Assembly (NCBI RefSeq): GCF_016743335.1
Contig: NZ_WCJE01000002.1
Coordinates: 62,001-126,000 of the forward strand
Source of the DNA: Streptococcus suis
GTDB taxonomy: Bacteria; Bacillota; Bacilli; Lactobacillales; Streptococcaceae
DNA: 64,000 nucleotides
Direction of reading: 5' to 3'
The notes beneath the pieces are model-generated. The model ran no database searches. It saw only the letters and a program-made list of their open reading frames with translations, and was not told the DNA's origin. This document shows positions 13,993 through 51,555 of the stretch, piece after piece; position 1 is the stretch's first letter, and every line of letters begins with the position of its first letter. Both the position numbers and the translations under genes were made by a program.

Positions 13993-15405
13993 TTAATACC
14001 TAATCTGTTGCTTTTTCTTAGGCTTGGTTGTAGCACAAGCCCAATGTGCCAGCAAAGCACTGTCCATTAAACTAATATCCATATCGTCAAAATGCGAGCG
14101 ATAGCCAAAACCACCATTTGAGCCAATGTTCCGCTTGTCACAGTTGGTCACAACCTTTGCCAACGACGGTTGCCCGTTATGACAAATCGTGTGCTGGTAA
14201 ATTCCCTGCTCCCACATAGAGTTAGCAATGATGATTTCCTTGACGGTTGGCAAGATGACATTACGGATTTTAGAGTCTTTCAATTCCTCTTCTAACATCT
14301 TCTGCCCACTAGCTCCGTCAATGACAATCTGAGCCACATCTGCCTGCTTCAAAAAGGCTACCAGCCAGGCACTACCATTCCGCACAGATTGACAGTCGAT
14401 AGTTTCCACAAAAAATTGACTGTCTTCTGTCCGAACAGCAATAGACAAGGCTACGTTGGTGCCGTCCTGCCCAAACTTGATGCCAGCAAATAGCTTGCCA
14501 GTCAGCTTCGGCATATCGTCAATCTTGAGTGCGTTCCACTCAGTCTCAGATATAGCTGATTTCTGGTTGTAAGTCGGCCAGAAACCCAAACGCTGTACAT
14601 TATGGTCTAACTTGTCTTCGCCAAGCTCAGCCTCAATCTTCCTCTCGTTGAGATGATAGCCCATGGACGGATTAGAGTTGTACCATGCTGCTACATCGTC
14701 AATCTCTTTCTCTTGGTCCACAGACCATTCAGCCCAACCCGAATACTTACCCTTGCCAAACAGACAGGTCTCACGGTATTTGGTAAATACCGTACCGCTT
14801 GAAACGGGTGTCGGAGGAGTTCCACACATGATTGTCATCGGATTGTCCGAGTCTGTAACAGTGTACTTTAGAGCTGATTCCTGCTCTGTCGTGTACTCCT
14901 GCGCCTCGTCAATGATGAGTAGGTCAAATCCCTCACCAAGACCACCATTGGATGTTCTGGTACGAAACTGGACCACACCACCAGTCTCATAGAGTTCGAT
15001 TCGCTCCTGCCCCTTGGCTCGAATGGAATTAAAATCCTCACCGTCCACATAGCCCATCTTTTCCAGATAACGCTTGACCTTCTCAAAGGACGAATGCGAT
15101 GTAGAAATGCGATGGGCTGTGTGTAGGATATTCAGCCCATTGTGCAAGCCCCAAATCTCCAGCATATAGAGGATTTCAGACTTACCATTCCGACGTGGGA
15201 TTGAGTAACCAAACTTTTGATGTACCCACAGGCCATTCTTGTCGACAGCCATGATTGGATTGAGCAAATTGACCTGCCAAGCGTAGCAAGACAGACCTGT
15301 TCGCTCATAGAGTTCTATCGCTTCTTTGGCTTTAGAATTTCGTTTAACGTATTTGAGTATTACCGATTGAGTAGGATTTTGATTGCCAAGTTTCTTTCTT
15401 GCCAT
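13993..15405 (-). CDS. Terminase large subunit
   Basis: 470 aa, ATG 15405 after AAAGGAC. ATPase half: Walker A-like PRRNGKSE at 70-77, Walker B DLLIIDEAQ at 161-169. Nuclease half: FAGIKFGQDGT, VIDGASGQ and DISLMDSALLAH supply the likely acidic metal ligands. It packages DNA into proheads through the portal. Unusually it lies after portal and minor head genes, not before; a terminator-like hairpin separates it from the genes upstream. Confidence 0.92.
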   Translation of the reverse strand: MARKKLGNQNPTQSVILKYVKRNSKAKEAIELYERTGLSCYAWQVNLLNPIMAVDKNGLWVHQKFGYSIPRRNGKSEILYMLEIWGLHNGLNILHTAHRISTSHSSFEKVKRYLEKMGYVDGEDFNSIRAKGQERIELYETGGVVQFRTRTSNGGLGEGFDLLIIDEAQEYTTEQESALKYTVTDSDNPMTIMCGTPPTPVSSGTVFTKYRETCLFGKGKYSGWAEWSVDQEKEIDDVAAWYNSNPSMGYHLNERKIEAELGEDKLDHNVQRLGFWPTYNQKSAISETEWNALKIDDMPKLTGKLFAGIKFGQDGTNVALSIAVRTEDSQFFVETIDCQSVRNGSAWLVAFLKQADVAQIVIDGASGQKMLEEELKDSKIRNVILPTVKEIIIANSMWEQGIYQHTICHNGQPSLAKVVTNCDKRNIGSNGGFGYRSHFDDMDISLMDSALLAHWACATTKPKKKQQIRY

Positions 15406-15453
15406 ATTTTCGTCCTTTCAATCGTCTGCCTAGTTTTCTGTCATACGGCAGGA

Positions 15454-15485
15454 CAAAAAGAAACCGCCTCGAATTCGACACGGTT
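15454..15485 (-). terminator. Terminator-like hairpin before terminase gene
   Basis: Minus strand AACCGtG-TCG-AATT-CGA-GgCGGTT then TTTCTTTTT. One mismatch in the stem. Lies just past the stop at 15487, 49 bases before terL. Confidence 0.55.
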
Positions 15486-15486
15486 C

Positions 15487-15717
15487 CTATTGCATTTCTT
15501 CCAACAAAATAGCTTTACCAACTTCCAACATTCCTAATGCTTCCAGACTACTGTTTCTGCTGTAAGAGACGTTAATCTGATTATCTTTATTCAGGCTAAC
15601 GATAACGATTGATTCAATATTGGCAACAGTGTCTAATTCAGCCTTGAGGATGCCACGGCAGCCGACACCTCGTTCTTTGTTCTTTGCTAATTCATCAATA
15701 GTAACTACTTCGGCCAT
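15487..15717 (-). CDS. Unknown small phage protein, 76 aa
   Basis: ATG 15717 shares its A with the upstream stop (TGATG) and has GGAGG 5 bases before. The product (VVTIDELAKNKERGVGCRGILKAELDTVANIESIVIVSL) looks like a small alpha/beta protein. No family recognised. It lies between minor head and terminase genes. Confidence 0.6.
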   Translation of the reverse strand: MAEVVTIDELAKNKERGVGCRGILKAELDTVANIESIVIVSLNKDNQINVSYSRNSSLEALGMLEVGKAILLEEMQ

Positions 15718-15971
15718 CACTTCCTCCGTTTATACCATGGTTTCTTAAGCTGTTTGACTTCACGCTCTAACGTTTCAATCCGTTTTTCGTACTCTTCAAA
15801 CTTACGATTGATGGTCTGGATGTTTGTAGATTCAATGCCTTTCAGATTATCCAAACGATTTTCCAAACTATCAAGTCTAGCAACATGTCTATTCAATCTA
15901 AACATAATCCATTCCATACAATCCCATAATTCTTTGAATGGTTTGTATTTCTTTTTGATACGCTTGTTCAT
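15717..15971 (-). CDS. Coiled-coil protein with MNKRIKKK leader, 84 aa
   Basis: AGGAGG precedes ATG 15971. Residues 1-8 are MNKRIKKK, the same leader as in the genes at 20797-21066 and 22331-22729. The rest is helical with heptads (LDSLENRLDNLKGIES, RKFEEYEKRIETLEREVKQLKK) and a basic end. Function unknown. Confidence 0.65.
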   Translation of the reverse strand: MNKRIKKKYKPFKELWDCMEWIMFRLNRHVARLDSLENRLDNLKGIESTNIQTINRKFEEYEKRIETLEREVKQLKKPWYKRRK

Positions 15972-15991
15972 AGCATCCTCCTTTCCAGAAA

Positions 15992-16132
15992 TTATAATCT
16001 TTTAGTGACCTTACCGCACTTTTTGCAATAATAAAAATCAATCTTATAATGCCCTAAATCTTTGAACCAAAAATCATGAACACATAAGAAAGTCTTGACG
16101 AACCATTTTTTTATTTTACTTAGTTGGTACAT
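15992..16132 (-). CDS. Small CxxC protein, 46 aa
   Basis: Too short for routine gene calls, but ATG 16132 has a strong GGAGGGAGT site and the frame is complete. A Cys-His pair (LCVHDFW) and a later CKKCGK could together bind zinc. Similar tiny zinc-ribbon-like proteins occur in phage genomes; role unknown. Confidence 0.6.
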   Translation of the reverse strand: MYQLSKIKKWFVKTFLCVHDFWFKDLGHYKIDFYYCKKCGKVTKRL

Positions 16133-16154
16133 ACTCCCTCCTTTTTTTTGCAAC

Positions 16155-16181
16155 AAAAAAGCACTCGATATCTCGAATGCT
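16155..16181 (-). terminator. Intrinsic terminator after portal-MuF-small gene unit
   Basis: Minus strand AGCATTCGA-GATA-TCGAGTGCT followed by TTTTTTG; the 9-bp stem (one G-T pair) overlaps the stop codon of the 73-aa gene. Confidence 0.8.
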
Positions 16182-16402
16182 TAGTAAAATACGTTTTCTG
16201 GATCTGGCTCAATCGGGACGCCACTGTCTATTGCTTTTTGGAGGTCGCCAATAGCTGACTCCAAACAATTTTTCCAATAAATTGGGTAATCGTGAGGTTC
16301 CCACAAAAAAACATTGTCCAATGAGTGTTCGCCAAATTTTTCAAGATAAATTTCTACTTTCTCGTCATATTTTTGACGAAGTTGTTGATGTAATTGATCC
16401 AT
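16181..16402 (-). CDS. Small acidic protein after MuF-peptidase gene, 73 aa; candidate partner/immunity
   Basis: Starts 6 bases after the MuF gene ends and finishes inside a terminator, so it is tied to that gene. It is helical and acidic (YDEKVEIYLEKFGEHSLDNVFLWEPHDYPIYWKNCLESAIGDL, EPDPENVFY end). Polymorphic MuF toxins are often followed by a small immunity gene; that role is inferred here from position only. Confidence 0.55.
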   Translation of the reverse strand: MDQLHQQLRQKYDEKVEIYLEKFGEHSLDNVFLWEPHDYPIYWKNCLESAIGDLQKAIDSGVPIEPDPENVFY

Positions 16403-16408
16403 AACTTG

Positions 16409-17902
16409 TCACACTTTCACAAATAATCCGATAATAAAGTTTAGGAATTCAGGGTCGTCATTGATTGTCTTTTTCTCATAGCTCCAATTCTGCCTATTAT
16501 ATGATTTAACAAATAGTTCCTCCGGAACAAATATTCCTTGTAGTCCCATTGTAAATACCTCAGCAGCATCACGATAATATTTACCGATATATGGATCAAC
16601 GAAATCATCTTTCTTCGTGACTTCTCTCGGTCCATATGAGGAACCTGGGAAAATATCTTTGAGCCGTGAATCCATTTCTCCAACAGTACGTTGGTCTACC
16701 CAAGCTTTCTCTAAACGAACCAAATCAGGGGTTGCCCATTCTACCAAATGTCCAATTTCGTGGAATGGAGTAGATTGTCTAACTCCATTAGTTGCAATAA
16801 CAAGATTTACATCATAGCCAGAGAAATATCCGCGTTTTCTTTTAATGGCTGACAGTTGTTTCCCGTGTTTCTGTGGTATTTTAGCCCATTCTTTTGGATA
16901 ATACGAAAAAGCATTTTGCAATTGGTCTTTTACAACCTTAGAAGAACCTTTAGCCCAAACTTCTTTAGGAATTTCTCCGCCAATATCACGAAAATTTGAA
17001 AAAATCTCCTTGAGTTTTGCGTTGTTTCCGATATGTTCTGATACGTTAAAGTGATAATTGATTCGCTTCCCTATCTCAATTATATCATTTGGAGTGGCTG
17101 TTGTCATGTTAATCTTAGCAATATCCTTTTTGAGTTGCAAAACACCTTCACTAAACACTGCTTCAGAGACTCTTTTTTCAGCTTCTTCTTGTTTTTTTTG
17201 CTTCCGCCACAACTTACTCCAAATATCCTGAATTTTCCCATTCTTTGGATCATAATCCACTGTGCATCTGCATCGTTGATGCCTGCGATAGGCATCTTTC
17301 GGAACTTTTGGATACTGGTAGATTCCAACAACTTCGCGACACCAGTCACAGCATTTGCCACCTTCTTTGCGGATAATCTGAGGAGATAGTCCCGAATCGT
17401 AATGAAACTCTGCATTTGCTTTGATACTATCATCCACAATCGACTGCGTGAAATTGACAATCGGTTCCTGCAACATCCAAGCAACCTTATCAAAATCATC
17501 TTCGAATGACAAACGATTGACAAGACCGTCAATCCTGTCCTGATTGATTTCTGGCACCTGCACCTGTAGACCAATATTTGCAGACTTATTCAAATCCTCC
17601 TGGACTTGAGTAGTATAACCACTCACAAGCTCGAAATTCCGCCCTAGCGTGTCCGCCAAGAGCCTATCCGCTATGTTGTAGTACATTTTACCGTCTGGCA
17701 ACTTATCGCCCCTTACAGACGAACTGAGAGCCTCTGCCAGAATGTCTCCAACCTCCAGAGCAAAATCATTTGCTGTGGCATAGGTCGCCCTCTTCTTTTT
17801 CAACTCCTCAAAAGCACGACGGACAACCTCACTCTTACCATAGGATGCTTCAAACTTGTCCTGCACTTCCTTTAGCAAGTCTGGTAACATATCACGTTCC
17901 AT
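16409..17902 (-). CDS. Minor head protein (MuF/SPP1 gp7-like) fused to HExxH metallopeptidase-like domain
   Basis: 497 aa, ATG 17902 after GAGGTGACG. Residues 1-220 form the MuF domain with the usual Cys/His cluster C184, C185, C188, H208, C211, C213. After a charged linker (225-245) a C-terminal domain contains H381-E-I-G-H385 and E448 in DAAEVFTMG, the expected three zinc ligands and catalytic Glu of a zincin. MuF proteins sit inside the capsid and can be ejected with DNA. The coding region is not needed at this length for the head function alone (MuF domain is near 250 residues). Portal gene overlaps by 11 bases. Confidence 0.85.
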   Translation of the reverse strand: MERDMLPDLLKEVQDKFEASYGKSEVVRRAFEELKKKRATYATANDFALEVGDILAEALSSSVRGDKLPDGKMYYNIADRLLADTLGRNFELVSGYTTQVQEDLNKSANIGLQVQVPEINQDRIDGLVNRLSFEDDFDKVAWMLQEPIVNFTQSIVDDSIKANAEFHYDSGLSPQIIRKEGGKCCDWCREVVGIYQYPKVPKDAYRRHQRCRCTVDYDPKNGKIQDIWSKLWRKQKKQEEAEKRVSEAVFSEGVLQLKKDIAKINMTTATPNDIIEIGKRINYHFNVSEHIGNNAKLKEIFSNFRDIGGEIPKEVWAKGSSKVVKDQLQNAFSYYPKEWAKIPQKHGKQLSAIKRKRGYFSGYDVNLVIATNGVRQSTPFHEIGHLVEWATPDLVRLEKAWVDQRTVGEMDSRLKDIFPGSSYGPREVTKKDDFVDPYIGKYYRDAAEVFTMGLQGIFVPEELFVKSYNRQNWSYEKKTINDDPEFLNFIIGLFVKV

Positions 17903-19154
17903 TCGCCGTCACCTCTGGAATCACAGGTTTAGCTTCACTGTCACCAACAATTCCCGTCAAATCACGGATAGTCTCAGCTGTGATATAACCTGGCAAAGCT
18001 TGGTTGATTTTGATAGCACCGTCCCCTAGCATCGTCAGCGTCGTAGCATCAGCTTCAAAGAGTGGTTCCCATTTAGGAACAGTCTTGACAAACTGTTCTC
18101 TCAAAAACGGATACTCATCACGCAAGCAGACAGCGACATAAGCAACATTCAATAACCCACTGCCCAAACTACGTTGAGCTTTTCTACCAGCTAATCGCAA
18201 ATTCTCATGACTAGCTTTGATTGCCTCTACCGATGATGGATTGTCCGACACAAAACCAAGGTCATCTAATGTCAACCCCATTTCCCCAGCAAATCCAGCT
18301 GCTGCAGTCCGCAACTGTTCCGTAAATGGACTCATACTTGCCGTGGTAAATTGTCCAATGCTCGGCACGTCACCATCGTCATCCTTAGTAAATTCCAAGA
18401 GACTTGTCACAGTCGCTTTCCATTTATCCATTGGTTCCGCATCTTGGCTTGTGCCCAAAACATATTTCTGTGGGAACGAGTAAAACTCTGCCGTCACATC
18501 GGCACGTTCCAAAGTCCTCTTAGCATACGATTGATAGTACATACCTGCACGAGTTATCCGACTACGACCAAACGGACGAACCGCATCTGGTCTATGTATC
18601 ACGGGAACAAGCAATGGCCGACCTGTTGGATTGGTAATCGGAGTGAACGTTGCACCCGAAATATAGATTGTTTGCTCTGCCGTAAAGTAGGCTTCGAGTT
18701 TCGGGTTGCCATTGTCGTCCCTTTGTAAGACCGCATAACCTTCTGTCAACAGCCCTGTAATTGGGTCTAAGATACCTGTCGCATTGCTGGATTCAATGAC
18801 TTGCAGACGCACCTTATCCTCAACCTTGGACAGGTAGACAAAACTACACGAACCTATCAAGGACGATAGAACCACAGAGTCGAAAAAGACATCTGGATTA
18901 TTCTGCTGAAAAATATCATTGACTTGAAACTGGTCATTGTCAAACTCACGGAAAACCAATCTGTCCGCTAAGCTATCCACACCTTTCGCACACCAGCCCA
19001 AGACCGACCGATACTGTTGACGGATATTTGGTGGAATGGTAATCCCGAACGAGCTATCTTTATGCTGCATAGCATACTGCTTGTACCTCAAATCAACACG
19101 AGGTTTCACCTCGTTTAGCTTTCGTCTGAGGTATCCAATACCTTTGTATTCCAA
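17892..19154 (-). CDS. Portal protein (SPP1 gp6-like)
   Basis: 420 aa, TTG start at 19154 with AAAGGAG 6 bases before. RSVLGWCAKGVDSLADRLVFREFDND, RPFGRSRITRAGMYYQSYAKRTLERADVTAEFYSFPQKYVLG and DDLGFVSDNPSSVEAIKASHENLRL are portal signatures. Forms the dodecameric DNA gate and binds terminase. Upstream are an HNH gene and a palindromic noncoding stretch. Confidence 0.9.
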   Translation of the reverse strand: MEYKGIGYLRRKLNEVKPRVDLRYKQYAMQHKDSSFGITIPPNIRQQYRSVLGWCAKGVDSLADRLVFREFDNDQFQVNDIFQQNNPDVFFDSVVLSSLIGSCSFVYLSKVEDKVRLQVIESSNATGILDPITGLLTEGYAVLQRDDNGNPKLEAYFTAEQTIYISGATFTPITNPTGRPLLVPVIHRPDAVRPFGRSRITRAGMYYQSYAKRTLERADVTAEFYSFPQKYVLGTSQDAEPMDKWKATVTSLLEFTKDDDGDVPSIGQFTTASMSPFTEQLRTAAAGFAGEMGLTLDDLGFVSDNPSSVEAIKASHENLRLAGRKAQRSLGSGLLNVAYVAVCLRDEYPFLREQFVKTVPKWEPLFEADATTLTMLGDGAIKINQALPGYITAETIRDLTGIVGDSEAKPVIPEVTANGT

Positions 19155-19213
19155 TCTGGTCTCCTTTCAATTTTGGCGCGAGAAAAAATGTACAGTGACG
19201 GCGTGAAGCTCTG

Positions 19214-19259
19214 CCGAGGCGGTGGGGAGGGTGGTACTCCCCTATGTTCTCAACCTCGG
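19214..19259. other. Nested palindrome between HNH and portal genes (candidate packaging site)
   Basis: The 95-base gap 19155-19249 is GC-rich compared with its surroundings. CCGAGG (19214-19219) pairs with CCTCGG (19254-19259) and, inside, GGGGAG (19224-19229) pairs with CTCCCC (19237-19242). HNH nucleases beside head genes are usually linked with cos packaging, so a cos or pac element could be here; not demonstrated. Confidence 0.35.
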
Positions 19260-19588
19260 TACTTCGTCCAATTCATACTTTGTGGTAAATTTCGATTGCC
19301 AACAACTTTCGTTCCATTTACCTTATCGTCAGCAAATAGTTTATCGGACTTCTGCCGATTGCATTGCCAGTGAGCAAGTTGAAGATTGTTAATATCCGAT
19401 GGATGTCCATTGCGATTGACAGGGATGATATGATCTATCACAGGACTTAATGGATGCGGATAACTTAATGACTTATCAACGAGGTTTCCGCAGATTCCAC
19501 ATGTGTTTCTTGTCTTAAGAATTATCTTCTTGTTTTTCTCAAAAGCTACCCGATGCGGACCACTTCTGTCTGGTCTAGTTTCAGCCAT
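19250..19588 (-). CDS. HNH endonuclease (packaging-associated)
   Basis: 112 aa. CGICG, then DHIIPVNRNGHPSDINNLQLAHWQCNRQKSD: the catalytic DH, the N of DINNLQ and the final H/N with Cys pairs forming the zinc site. HNH proteins near terminase genes stimulate specific cleavage at cos sites in studied phages. Good AGGAGG lies before ATG 19588. Confidence 0.88.
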   Translation of the reverse strand: MAETRPDRSGPHRVAFEKNKKIILKTRNTCGICGNLVDKSLSYPHPLSPVIDHIIPVNRNGHPSDINNLQLAHWQCNRQKSDKLFADDKVNGTKVVGNRNLPQSMNWTKYRG

Positions 19589-19612: not shown

Positions 19613-19644
19613 GAAAGTAACATATCTTATATTCTGTTACGTTC
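19613..19644. repeat. Inverted repeat copy 1 (GAAAGTAACA arms)
   Basis: GAAAGTAACA (19613-19622) and TGTTACGTTC (19635-19644) are inverted with one mismatch and 12 bases between. The same element recurs 88 bases away. Confidence 0.75.
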
Positions 19645-19700
19645 GCTATAATCTACTCTAAGCTAGATACATCAAGACTTCAGCTGCATTCTAAAAAAAT

Positions 19701-19731
19701 GAAAGTAACATGCTTTTATTTTGTTACATTC
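19701..19731. repeat. Inverted repeat copy 2 (GAAAGTAACA arms)
   Basis: GAAAGTAACA (19701-19710) and TGTTACATTC (19722-19731) with 11 bases between; overlaps the stop codon of the tyrosine recombinase gene. Spacer also resembles copy 1 (CTTATATT versus CTTTTATT). Confidence 0.75.
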
Positions 19732-20296
19732 AATAGTCAAACGTCAGTATTGCCTCATCCAATTCATCCTGCTGATAACCAATGTAAATCAGGGTTATTG
19801 TTGGAGTTGAGTGGTTGAATATTTTTTGTAATGTGACCACATCATGTGTCTGGATATAGTAATGATATCCAAATGTTTTCCTCATGGAATGACTACCAAG
19901 GTTTTCCAGCCCGATATGTTGACCAGCTTTCTTGACAATCTCCCACGCTGTCTTCCGTTGGATTGGGGCGAACTGAACACCATTACGTTTGTCGCGTTTT
20001 CTACTTGGAAATAGAAAGTCATAATCTTTCAGTTCTTTATTTTCTATGTATTGATTTAGGGCTTTTCTTAGCTTTGGATTGATGGCAAATGGCTTGGCTT
20101 TCTTGGTCTTCTTCTCGACCACAAACACCCTGTCCCCTTTAACATCTTTGACTTTAAGGCCAATGAAGTCACTGATCCGAATACCAGAGTAAATCCCAAA
20201 CATGAACAAGATATAATCTCGCTCGTTTCTCTCTTTCAGATAATCTTTGATACGTTCGATATCATCAACGTTCCGAATAGGTTCAACAGACCGCAC
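19730..20296 (-). CDS. Small tyrosine recombinase, catalytic domain only
   Basis: 188 aa from GTG 20296, chosen because GGAGGTGAGCAA lies just before; an ATG 18 bases upstream would include that site. Contains only the catalytic domain: R40 (SGIR), K64-66 beta hairpin, H136 and R139 (HSMRK), H162 (IFNHST), Y171 or Y174. The arm- and core-binding N-domain is missing. The prophage already has a full integrase at 33456. Genes of this type precede the packaging genes in several Firmicute phages. Two identical-armed inverted repeats lie at its 3' end. Confidence 0.85.
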   Translation of the reverse strand: MRSVEPIRNVDDIERIKDYLKERNERDYILFMFGIYSGIRISDFIGLKVKDVKGDRVFVVEKKTKKAKPFAINPKLRKALNQYIENKELKDYDFLFPSRKRDKRNGVQFAPIQRKTAWEIVKKAGQHIGLENLGSHSMRKTFGYHYYIQTHDVVTLQKIFNHSTPTITLIYIGYQQDELDEAILTFDY

Positions 20297-20417: not shown

Positions 20418-20855
20418 TCAAACTCCGCCCAAACTCCGTTTTTCAACCAACAACACACCTCTACGGTAAATCTCTGCAAATGAAATCAATGCTAAATTAA
20501 GTAATTCATGATAGCGAGTTTCCTCATAACCGATTTTTTTCATGATTTCTTCTCTGGGTATTGGATAGGGTTTGAGATATTTAAAAATCAGTATCAATCT
20601 TAGCTCTGGCTGTAAAATATGTGAAACCGAATATTCTATGGCTTCTAGCTCATTAACTGCCTCGACATGATTAAGTGCCAATTTCTCAACTTGTTGATTT
20701 GGTTTTGAAACACTTTGTCTAGGCTCAAAAGTGTATTGCTGAGTAATCTTCTGTTCCTGAAAATCATTAGCAATGTTTCGCCACATTTTGTACTTTTCAA
20801 GAGTGCTCTCTGCTTTCTCTATCGTCTTCTTCGTGTCCAATTCTGCTACAATCAA
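20418..20855 (-). CDS. ArpU-type phage late transcription regulator
   Basis: 145 aa, TTG start at 20855 (AGGAAGG upstream); start not certain. Helical, with a sigma-like region (VSHILQPELRLILIFKYLKPYPIPREEIMKKIGYEETRYHELLNLALISFAEIYRRG) typical of ArpU/RinA-like regulators that turn on the late operon in Gram-positive phages. It stands between early and late genes, with a 120-base gap before the recombinase where a late promoter would be expected. Confidence 0.7.
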   Translation of the reverse strand: MIVAELDTKKTIEKAESTLEKYKMWRNIANDFQEQKITQQYTFEPRQSVSKPNQQVEKLALNHVEAVNELEAIEYSVSHILQPELRLILIFKYLKPYPIPREEIMKKIGYEETRYHELLNLALISFAEIYRRGVLLVEKRSLGGV

Positions 20856-32644: not shown

Positions 32645-33337
32645 ATGACAGAGATTTATAACGACTCATTTAGACTTATGGGTACCAATTATCATCAAAA
32701 AGAAGCCCTTGAGATCATGAAGAAGCTCTCTAAGAAAAATAACTATCTGACAATGTCAGATGAAGGCATCAAAGAATACATTTTAAAAACATACTCAAAT
32801 GTGTATGAATATAAGTATCTTGAGACAAATGATATTATTTTGGTACGAGAGCCAAAAAATCCACATGATACGAATGCTGTGAAAGTCTTAGCTGGAGGGC
32901 TGTTTGCCGGTTATCTTCCTGCAGATATTGCTAAAAAAGTAAATCGGTACGTTGGCAAATCTGATTACAATATTAAGGCAACCTTACATGGTAGAGGTGG
33001 AAAGTTCAAAACCTTAGATGACACTTTGACCAAAGTAATTTCGGATGAAAAAGAAATATCGTTTAGACTGGATTTAGTAGTAAACAAGGTTCCAATTCCG
33101 AAAAAATCTGCATCTTCAGTGGATAGTCTTGCTTCACCAGTTCAAACTACCAACAGTTTCTGGCAAAATCTTTTTCTAATTCTGTCATTTTTGTTAATAT
33201 TAATTGGGATATTATTTGTCTTAGTAGCATTTAGTTTCCTGCTTAAGCAAAAAATATTAGAATTTTTTGTTGGGTTAGTCATTGGAGTATTGTTTTTTGC
33301 TCCAGCAACTGCCTATAAATTGATTTTCAAAAAATAA
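32645..33337 (+). CDS. HIRAN-domain protein with C-terminal membrane helices
   Basis: 230 aa. Residues about 56-140 (ETNDIILVREPKNPHDTNAVKVLAGGLFAGYLPADIAKKVNRYVGKSDYNIKATLHG) form a HIRAN domain, a fold known to bind damaged or free DNA ends. After a linker two hydrophobic helices follow (174-199 and 206-226). Located between repressor and integrase, where lysogens express exclusion or defence genes. A DNA-end-binding domain tethered to the membrane suggests superinfection exclusion. Confidence 0.7.
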   Translation: MTEIYNDSFRLMGTNYHQKEALEIMKKLSKKNNYLTMSDEGIKEYILKTYSNVYEYKYLETNDIILVREPKNPHDTNAVKVLAGGLFAGYLPADIAKKVNRYVGKSDYNIKATLHGRGGKFKTLDDTLTKVISDEKEISFRLDLVVNKVPIPKKSASSVDSLASPVQTTNSFWQNLFLILSFLLILIGILFVLVAFSFLLKQKILEFFVGLVIGVLFFAPATAYKLIFKK

Positions 33338-49962: not shown

Positions 49963-51555
49963 TTATATCTTCTCACGCAATTTCCCATCACGCATTTCCA
50001 AAACCACATCAAACATGTCTAGGATGGCAGGGTCTGATTGGTGCAAGATAGTAATGATGAGTTTGTCCTCCAACTGCAAAAGGTGGGTCAAGACCTGTTT
50101 GGTCAAGGCAGGGTCTAAATGGGCGGTCGGTTCATCCAAGAGCAAGATGTCCTTGCCGCTCATCAGGGCACGGAGCAGACACAGGGTATTTTTCTCGCCA
50201 CCACTCAAGAGACTGGGATCGCTTGTTGTACGCAAGGTGTCCTGTAAACTCGTTGGCAAGCTCCTTAACAAGCCAAGCATGACATCTCTTCCCTTCTCAT
50301 AGGTTCCAAAAACAGACACATTGTTTTCAAAATCGGTATGGTAAAGATGCTCAAACTGGCTAAGATAGAAGGCGGTAGCTGCTTCCATTTCATGTGAAAC
50401 ATCATGTTCCAAATAGGAAACACTTCCCATGTCCATAGCCAGTTCCCCTGCCAACACTCGTAGAAAAGTCGATTTCCCGCTAGCTGACGGGCCAATGATG
50501 GCATACTTTTTCCCCTTGTCAAACCGATAGGAAAAATCTGCTACCGCTAATTCTCCCACACGATAGGCCACATCCCTGACTTCCAAAGCTGTCACCTTGG
50601 GATAGCTTGGCACTTGCTCAGACAAGACCTGACCAGCAAGATAATCTTCTAAATTAGCGACCGTTTCCTTGGTCGAATGGATATAATTGACATCCAAAAG
50701 GATGTATTTCATGGGATAGATGAAATTTTCAACATAGCTAAAAGTCGCAATGGCAGCACCGATGGTCAACTTTTTTTGTAGCAAGAGGTAGCCGACCAAG
50801 CCAAAAGCCGTTAATTGCACCAAAAACATGGAAAATCCATTGACGACATTGGCCAGGGTTTTGAATTGCCCAAAGCGAAAACGGGCCTGTTCACTTTCTT
50901 CTACCGACCGATGGTGGACACGACTGATGGAGCCGAAGGTTTCACTATTAACGCGGTTCTTAGCAGAAAAGAGGTCAGTCACCACCTGAAAATAGCGTTC
51001 CAAACTCTGTAAAAATGACCGCTGACGCTGAGAAAGAGGACCCGAAATCCACTTGGGAATGAAAACCGCCAAGGCAGATGACAAAATAATGCCTACCGCA
51101 ACCAGCGGATGAACAAAGAGAAAGAGGGAAACCGCATAGATGAACATGCTCAAACTAGAGCGGATAATGTCCATGAGGGGACTCAGGTAACTCTCCTCAA
51201 TGGTTTCCAAATCGTTGTCAAAAATGGATAGATAGGCAGAGACATTCTTCTCTGAAAATTTGGCTAAAGGCTGTGATAACAAGCTGTTTGCCAGACCTTT
51301 TTTAGCCGTGACATAGAATCCCTGAGACACCTTCCACTCATAAACCTGGGAAATGTACTGAAAGACTGAATTGGCAATGATGGTCAAAGCGTAGGCCAAC
51401 AAGAGCCAGACAAGTCCTGTCCAGCCCATCTGAAAAATATGGTCAAAAAGATACTTATTTAACTCAGGTAATACGATATTGGTCAAACTATATAAGATAT
51501 GGAAAACCAACTGAATAGCAATAACAAACCTCAATTGATAGATGATTTTTTTCAT
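49963..51555 (-). CDS. ABC exporter subunit, fused membrane and ATPase domains
   Basis: 530 aa from ATG 51555 (AGGAGGAGTT). Six membrane helices then ATPase with GPSASGKST Walker A, LSGGEKNTL signature and LLLDEPTAH Walker B. Half-transporter paired with the next gene. Substrate unknown. Confidence 0.9.
   Translation of the reverse strand: MKKIIYQLRFVIAIQLVFHILYSLTNIVLPELNKYLFDHIFQMGWTGLVWLLLAYALTIIANSVFQYISQVYEWKVSQGFYVTAKKGLANSLLSQPLAKFSEKNVSAYLSIFDNDLETIEESYLSPLMDIIRSSLSMFIYAVSLFLFVHPLVAVGIILSSALAVFIPKWISGPLSQRQRSFLQSLERYFQVVTDLFSAKNRVNSETFGSISRVHHRSVEESEQARFRFGQFKTLANVVNGFSMFLVQLTAFGLVGYLLLQKKLTIGAAIATFSYVENFIYPMKYILLDVNYIHSTKETVANLEDYLAGQVLSEQVPSYPKVTALEVRDVAYRVGELAVADFSYRFDKGKKYAIIGPSASGKSTFLRVLAGELAMDMGSVSYLEHDVSHEMEAATAFYLSQFEHLYHTDFENNVSVFGTYEKGRDVMLGLLRSLPTSLQDTLRTTSDPSLLSGGEKNTLCLLRALMSGKDILLLDEPTAHLDPALTKQVLTHLLQLEDKLIITILHQSDPAILDMFDVVLEMRDGKLREKI

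Follow-up and report, generated by a model that had tools for sequence, protein, structure and literature searches.

The described mechanism nearest to the locus reported here appears, by analogy, to be that of TnpI and the internal resolution site of Tn4430 and Tn5401, a resolvase system in which core inverted repeats are accompanied by further subsites (PMC7157771). As with TnpI, a tyrosine recombinase lies beside a complex site in which a core of two inverted repeats, the place of recombination in the TnpI system, is joined by further subsites. The TnpI site, however, lies upstream of its gene, in a Tn3-family transposon, and has direct repeats as its extra subsites, whereas the present site is found downstream of a phage gene for a protein that consists of the catalytic domain alone, and has an inverted repeat as its putative accessory site. 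Direct-repeat accessory sites in a Tn3-family transposon were not found, and the recombinase stands among phage genes. The Xer systems offer another likeness: the core has the 11-6-11 layout of dif, and the recombinase gene adjoins its site as the host gene for XerS, the single recombinase of this streptococcal system, adjoins difSL, a 31-bp site with an 11-bp centre (PMC5357621). The present recombinase differs from Xer enzymes in having no N-terminal domain, in scoring far under the Xer cut-offs, in being phage-borne and in the presence of a putative accessory site. The nearest phage report that we found concerns gp50 of the Tyroviruses, which infect Bacillus; its putative attP lies directly past the stop codon and consists of two 11-bp inverted repeats around 6 bp, and its role is stated to be unclear (PMC9703825). 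In both cases a tyrosine recombinase of a phage is followed, past its stop codon, by an 11-6-11 site; gp50 differs in its N-terminal integrase domain and in the position of its gene, between the neck and tape-measure genes, and neither an accessory site nor use by satellites is described in the passages of that source drawn on here (PMC9703825).

FimB and FimE, of about 200 aa, are similar in size, and the recombinase gives a weak match to models of tyrosine-type DNA invertases. Invertases of the FimB/FimE type flip a promoter segment between two equivalent repeats. Two equivalent inverted repeats were not found here: the centres differ, the core centre is present in one repeat only, and among 12 phage or satellite records the core (at most three mismatches) occurs once in nine, is absent from three and never occurs twice. 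In the open-access literature, we recognised no description of this recombinase and site pair in streptococcal phages, or of its use by satellites, and a term search of the main text of two papers on streptococcal satellites did not return the word 'recombinase' (PMC13376191, PMC6813308). From its sequence features, we consider it rather probable that the locus is a self-contained module, situated near cos, that converts the phage genome between its multimeric and monomeric forms, and that satellites borrow it in trans with a changed centre.

Organization of the module in Streptococcus suis

The features that bear on the analysis lie as follows in the window, by which we mean the whole 64,000-nucleotide stretch of Streptococcus suis DNA that was analysed.

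20418–20855, minus strand: transcriptional activator phrog_248, directly upstream of the recombinase
19730–20296, minus strand: catalytic-domain-only tyrosine recombinase, 188 aa, GTG start, full R-K-H-R-H-Y set
19701–19731, minus strand: site 2, putative accessory inverted repeat with the same arms as site 1, without the TATAAG centre, spacer 11
19645–19700, minus strand: linker of the module, between the sites
19613–19644, minus strand: site 1, proposed core recombination site, spacer 12
19615–19642: 28-bp 11-6-11 dif-like core of site 1
19626–19631: proposed overlap TATAAG of site 1
19250–19588, minus strand: HNH endonuclease, first gene past the module
19195–19207, minus strand: cos-like sequence TTCACGCCGTCAC, the same 13 bases as the annotated cos of Streptococcus phage SM1
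33396–34526, plus strand: separate full-length integrase with SAM-like and catalytic domains

Along the minus strand, the phrog_248 activator (which we take to be ArpU-like) is followed by the recombinase, site 2, the linker, site 1, the HNH endonuclease, the cos-like sequence and the portal gene, and the position ahead of the packaging genes given in the first-pass annotation is borne out. The minus-strand stretch 13993–19154 reads HNH, portal (phrog_104), minor head protein and then terminase large subunit; the match to the latter (phrog_9) was only at 15405–13993, and the gene order seems unusual. A HIRAN-domain protein at 32645–33337 adjoins the full-length integrase.

The GTG start at 20296 is preceded by the ribosome-binding sequence GGAGGTGAG and opens a frame of 188 aa that ends in TGA at 19732–19730; an alternative ATG six codons upstream would give a 194-aa form. 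Residues 17–179 of the longer form match Phage_integrase (PF00589, E = 1.2e-26), and no match to an N-terminal domain was returned by the Pfam search. Tyrosine recombinases share the catalytic motif R-K-H-R-(H/W)-Y. All six residues (R40, K63, H136, R139, H162 and Y171) are present, which together with the PF00589 match places the protein among the tyrosine recombinases, and because none of them varies in an alignment of 26 members picked for diversity, an active enzyme is expected. The reading frame, the Pfam result and these residues agree with the earlier description of a 188-residue recombinase with a full catalytic set and no N-domain, and the complete integrase said to exist elsewhere is indeed separate, its sequence matching both domains. 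The best solved relative by profile is 4a8e, whose chain, named 'probable tyrosine recombinase XerC-like', was aligned over residues 116–275 of 292. Since the Xer family cut-offs were failed (TIGR02225, 62.7 bits against 329.6; XerS, 54.6 against 267; XerA_Arch, 74.8 against 220), with alignments that cover only the C-terminal part of Xer enzymes, the recombinase is not classed as a Xer protein. The invertase model NF007371 gave the weak match mentioned above (24.2 bits, cut-off 222).

Two inverted repeats had been noted at the 3' end of the gene, one of them over the stop codon, and both are there: they lie 88 bp apart, start to start, and site 2 overlaps the stop codon by two bases. The pattern GAAAGTAACA-N9-14-TGTTAC has two matches in the window and none in 100 dinucleotide shuffles. 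The arms of site 1, GAACGTAACA and GAAAGTAACA, are imperfect (9 of 10 positions match) and enclose the asymmetric centre AGAA-TATAAG-ATATG. Sites 1 and 2 are real yet not equivalent, and the earlier suggestion that they are recombinase core sites survives for one of them: site 1 fits a core, because a conserved asymmetric centre lies inside arms that co-vary with the recombinase (see below), whereas site 2, which is without this centre, is better read as an accessory site with putative binding. The likeness of the 28-bp core to dif appears modest, with the dif sequences taken from PMC3025954: 18 of its 28 positions agree with Bacillus subtilis dif, the highest score in the window though one that 6 of 127,946 28-mers reach, and an unremarkable 15 of 28 agree with E. 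coli dif (206 window 28-mers are as high); site 2 agrees with B. subtilis dif at 12 of 28. The linker of relatives contains, by eye, an imperfect AAGCCTTG..CTTG..TTT element. In L002 (3370–3400), a near-identical relative of the window module, the spacer of site 2 is 5 bp shorter with the arms unchanged, as if the centre of site 2 did not matter.

No second core in the window is convincing; the sole other match (at most three mismatches in the 16-base centre), at 51487, is at chance level, and an intramolecular switch acting through a second copy was rejected on this ground. The genome from which the window comes holds one exact copy of the core and three copies with three mismatches, against two for the reversed control. 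A single core allows neither inversion nor deletion within one monomer, and the partner must be a copy in a multimer, in another circle or in another element.

Conservation of the core and co-variation of its arms

A tblastn search with the recombinase matched 156 phage records, 124 of them named Streptococcus; 14 records among 60 listed, and one more, were examined, chosen for spread. Scans of viral and genome contigs, two of which cover the best 80 matches, gave loci from at least Streptococcus, Bacillus and relatives, Paenibacillus, Clostridium, Lachnospiraceae and others. The 18-base sequence ACAGAATATAAGATATGT, which in the window is site 1, recurs downstream of recombinase genes, mostly about 80–200 bases past the stop in a set partly fetched because the motif was present. 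A further set was fetched by protein, with identical proteins or module contexts merged before counting and four of 161 loci dropped as too short. Among the resulting 157 distinct relatives, 66 have the core downstream within four mismatches and 91 do not; the reverse strand gave 2/157 and the sequence upstream of the gene 3/154. In a looser search, some core-less relatives proved to carry two repeats in the same layout but with different arms, for instance ACTTGACA or GTTATACA: 14/92 reach 29 of 32, as do 6/92 in the upstream control and 1/92 in shuffles. The presence of the repeats with the gene, proposed earlier as a check, has a mixed outcome: a part of the family has the core itself, and some of the others have two repeats with other arms. 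Distant members vary the central hexamer (TATTAG in L139, TATCAG in L155 and TATATC in L242). In L106 (2093–7232), about 2 kb with an HTH regulator, a metallopeptidase-like protein and a 144-aa ORF separates the recombinase from the module, which is itself followed by an 803-aa gene and then by a possible gene for the terminase small subunit, these roles being read by eye.

Over 60 distinct pairs, the outer seven bases of the left and right arms agree at 5.02 of 7 positions, against 3.65 when the right arms were permuted among loci (5000 shuffles, of which the largest gave 4.10). Site 2 matches the arms of its own locus at 13.2 of 16 positions, compared with 10.8 for the arms of other classes and 11.0 for the reversed control, and its own arms beat other-class arms in 44 of 45 distinct arm pairs. 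From site 2 to site 1 the distance is 84–89 bp in 68 of 74 loci, in a search that allowed roughly 40–125 bp, and 56 of the same 74 loci have a site 2 spacer of 11 and 13 have one of 10, a count confined to recombinase-bearing sites that score at least 13/16. Together, the co-variation of the arms and their sharing by site 2 indicate that the arms change symmetrically together while the centre of site 1 stays. The layout is, to judge from sequence, that of a crossover site with an accessory site. A core joined by an accessory site of the same motif, the TnpI-type arrangement, can thus be read in the 44 of 45 arm pairs and the spacing of 68 of 74 loci, with binding predicted.

Across the 34 loci that have all three genes, arm differences correlate with recombinase distance at a Spearman value of 0.73, with distance in the ArpU-like gene at 0.44 and with distance in the HNH gene at 0.07, values reached by 0, 0 and 267 of 2000 permutations, respectively. 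Where the recombinases are more than 95% identical and the ArpU-like proteins less than 60% (11 pairs), 0.27 of 14 arm bases differ; the figure is 3.75 where the ArpU-like proteins are more than 90% and the recombinases less than 70% identical (8 pairs), and 4.56 where the HNH proteins are more than 90% and the recombinases less than 70% identical (45 pairs). Ownership of the sites by the ArpU-like activator or the HNH protein is disfavoured, because the arms track the recombinase more closely, although the ArpU-like gene also correlates with them.

Association with cos, satellites and the central hexamer

In the genus Streptococcus, 28 of the 29 copies of this type of cos were assessable, and the module lies 0.13–1.5 kb upstream of it, on the same strand, in 22 of these 28 elements, satellites included. 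The other six, four of which have an HNH gene, are without a module near cos (1.5 kb of upstream sequence was scanned in five and 1.16 kb in L480), and the idea of the module as an obligatory part of the cos region was rejected on their account. For 55 pairs of relatives out of 131, homology breaks off directly to the right of the site; the 131 pairs, which are not independent, remain from 227 once redundant pairs, and ends no more than 15 bases from the end of a segment, were set aside. These breaks may reflect exchange between phages or ordinary mosaicism. L215 and L301 share sequence rightwards from the core and differ leftwards, with left arms GAATTTAACA and GAAAGTCACA, possibly as the product of an exchange at the core; as proof of exchange, such hybrid arms were set aside as ambiguous.

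A scan of 284 Streptococcus genomes for ACANAATNNAAGATATGT, a pattern whose centre is held to TNNAAG and which passes over sites that close with ATATGA (four were listed by a one-mismatch scan), found 52 places, 51 of them distinct. The centre is TATAAG in 33 of 34 places with a recombinase just upstream and differs from it in 16 of 17 recombinase-less places, which have TGTAAG, TAGAAG or TCTAAG or, in L433, arms that match at 3/10, probably by chance; sites with fewer than 7/10 arm matches were kept in this 34-versus-17 count and left out of one other. Fisher's test across related elements gives p = 3.9e-11, a value that overstates the association because these elements are not independent. 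The exceptions are L444, which has a recombinase and another centre and looks like a satellite with its own recombinase; L128, a Streptococcus suis satellite that keeps TATAAG and also has its own recombinase; and two further sites that keep TATAAG, L451 (a site of the kind seen in the satellite-like L078) and the second module of L085.

Translations read by eye gave an integrase and/or XRE regulator together with replication genes in L319, L320, L324, L325 and L445, and no terminase or capsid gene was recognised among them. Satellite features (integrase, XRE regulator, primase/replication genes) were read in the same way in these five and in L078 and L085; no integrase was seen within the stretch taken for L320 or L445. 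By eye, the recombinase-less streptococcal carriers are thus candidate satellite-type elements. A sequence like the cos of the phages lies on the same strand in 12 of 18 satellite-type loci, with none shown in the other six. Satellite arms match different recombinase classes: GTAACA (window), TTTAACA (SM1) and TAGACA (Javan374). Two full modules of different arm class are present in L320 (7607 and 9117) and L085 (9405 and 9575), L445 has two cores of different arm class that both have the centre TGTAAG (9094 and 9429), and L455 appears to carry a pair of cores, likewise of unlike arm class, at 350 and 190 bp ahead of cos. The two-core satellites look as if they were tuned to two helper types. 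We do not claim that the modules of a two-module satellite always differ in their hexamer: L320 and L085 conform to such a rule, and L445 breaks it. In the satellite-type locus L321 (4599–5460), a TGTAAG module is followed by an apparent fragment of the recombinase frame (a TMRKTFGYHYY stretch) and a second core, ACACAATATAAGATATGA. The last gene ahead of the module in L324, at 1176–142 bp upstream of the core, resembles by eye a ClpP-type prohead protease and is a candidate capsid-remodelling gene.

Proposed multimer interconversion and competing explanations

Our model of multimer and monomer interconversion would have the recombinase bind the arms of site 1, for crossover, and of site 2, as accessory site. 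Strand exchange would take place at the central 6 bp, TATAAG, of two such sites, carried either by a multimer of the same genome or by two monomer circles, and the exchange would turn multimers into monomers and back, most likely as multimer resolution during replication and before cos-directed packaging. Satellites without the enzyme would carry modules whose arms match one or two helper recombinase classes, such that the helper enzyme acts in trans, and their altered centre would let satellite copies recombine mutually and not with the helper site. Tyrosine recombinases in general require that the overlap match between partners. A satellite that recombined at the helper's TATAAG would fuse into helper DNA; a different hexamer should therefore prevent fusion and keep exchange between satellites. 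We hold tentatively, as a serious possibility, that satellites parasitise the genome resolvase of their helper in this way, with arms tuned to the helper class or classes and an altered overlap that bars fusion with the helper. The strand exchange, its occurrence between copies of the same genome, the direction towards resolution rather than fusion and the use by satellites are all what we infer from sequence comparison. Among the three roles suggested in the first-pass annotation, the resolution of concatemers comes closest to this model.

Another of those roles, that of a DNA-binding regulator only, would have the recombinase-like protein bind sites 1 and 2 as operators and switch a promoter of the HNH and packaging genes, with the conserved centre as a -10-like element and the module serving satellites as a helper-responsive promoter. 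The module does lie ahead of the late genes in the same orientation, the next start codon follows about 35–60 bp past the core in the window and several satellites, and the centre ATATAAGAT resembles a -10; in Tn5401, moreover, the binding of TnpI to the resolution site of the element reportedly modulates expression (PMC7157771). However, nothing sigma-70-like turned up at site 1 in a simple scan for promoters, the HNH match of many SM1-like phages begins 120–147 bp past the core, and in L324 no forward ORF (at least 60 aa, filtered list) occurs until about 1.3 kb past site 1. The invariant catalytic residues (26/26) and the altered satellite hexamers TGTAAG, TAGAAG or TCTAAG, which a promoter role does not predict, also speak against regulation as the sole role, which we regard as unlikely; a regulatory side role of the recombinase is possible. 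Because a promoter or simple operator does not predict the hexamer pattern, and in view of the gap in L324, we read the module as one of multimer and monomer interconversion, most likely a resolvase. The same strand-exchange chemistry would equally serve fusion, and the recombinase might instead join theta-replicated monomer circles into molecules with two cos sites, in phage and satellite alike. Such building of multimers agrees with the place of the module, which in 22 of the 28 elements assessed, among them satellites, precedes cos by 0.13–1.5 kb. Yet a core and an accessory site at fixed spacing are typical of systems that favour the resolution of direct repeats, and four of the 28 elements bear an HNH gene and the same cos with no module within 1.2–1.5 kb; we think fusion as the main task improbable.

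The common TATAAG overlap, found in phages with quite different arms, could also make the site a platform on which phages, or a phage and a satellite, swap their late halves, and the 55 pairs, among 131 that are not independent, whose homology breaks off directly to the right of the site come from several phage groups and one satellite group. Ends outside a functional unit are, however, expected as well from mosaicism with selection keeping the recombinase with its site, satellites are mostly without the common overlap, and L214 and L096, which have different arms, join near the HNH gene rather than at the core; this explanation seems to us quite doubtful. The remaining suggestion made earlier, a genetic switch of the FimB/FimE kind that inverts or deletes the 88 bp from one repeat to the other, could draw on the two repeats, on an enzyme of the size of tyrosine-type DNA invertases and on the weak NF007371 match. 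The two centres nevertheless differ in length (12 against 11 bp) and in sequence, the conserved one being confined to site 1; the spacing of 84–89 bp is kept in 68 of 74 loci, and no inverted, collapsed or single-site module was noticed by eye in 97 modules, all of which makes such a rearrangement highly improbable.

The interconversion model proposes a testable role for a gene that is annotated as 'integrase' or 'site-specific recombinase' in many records of Gram-positive phages, where it sits away from the lysogeny genes. It further draws attention to small recombinases of a single domain that have short sites and overlaps that differ in nature. If the model is true, the control of genome multimers would join what satellites take from their helper phages, and the overlap hexamer would be a simple incompatibility code that can be read from the sequence.
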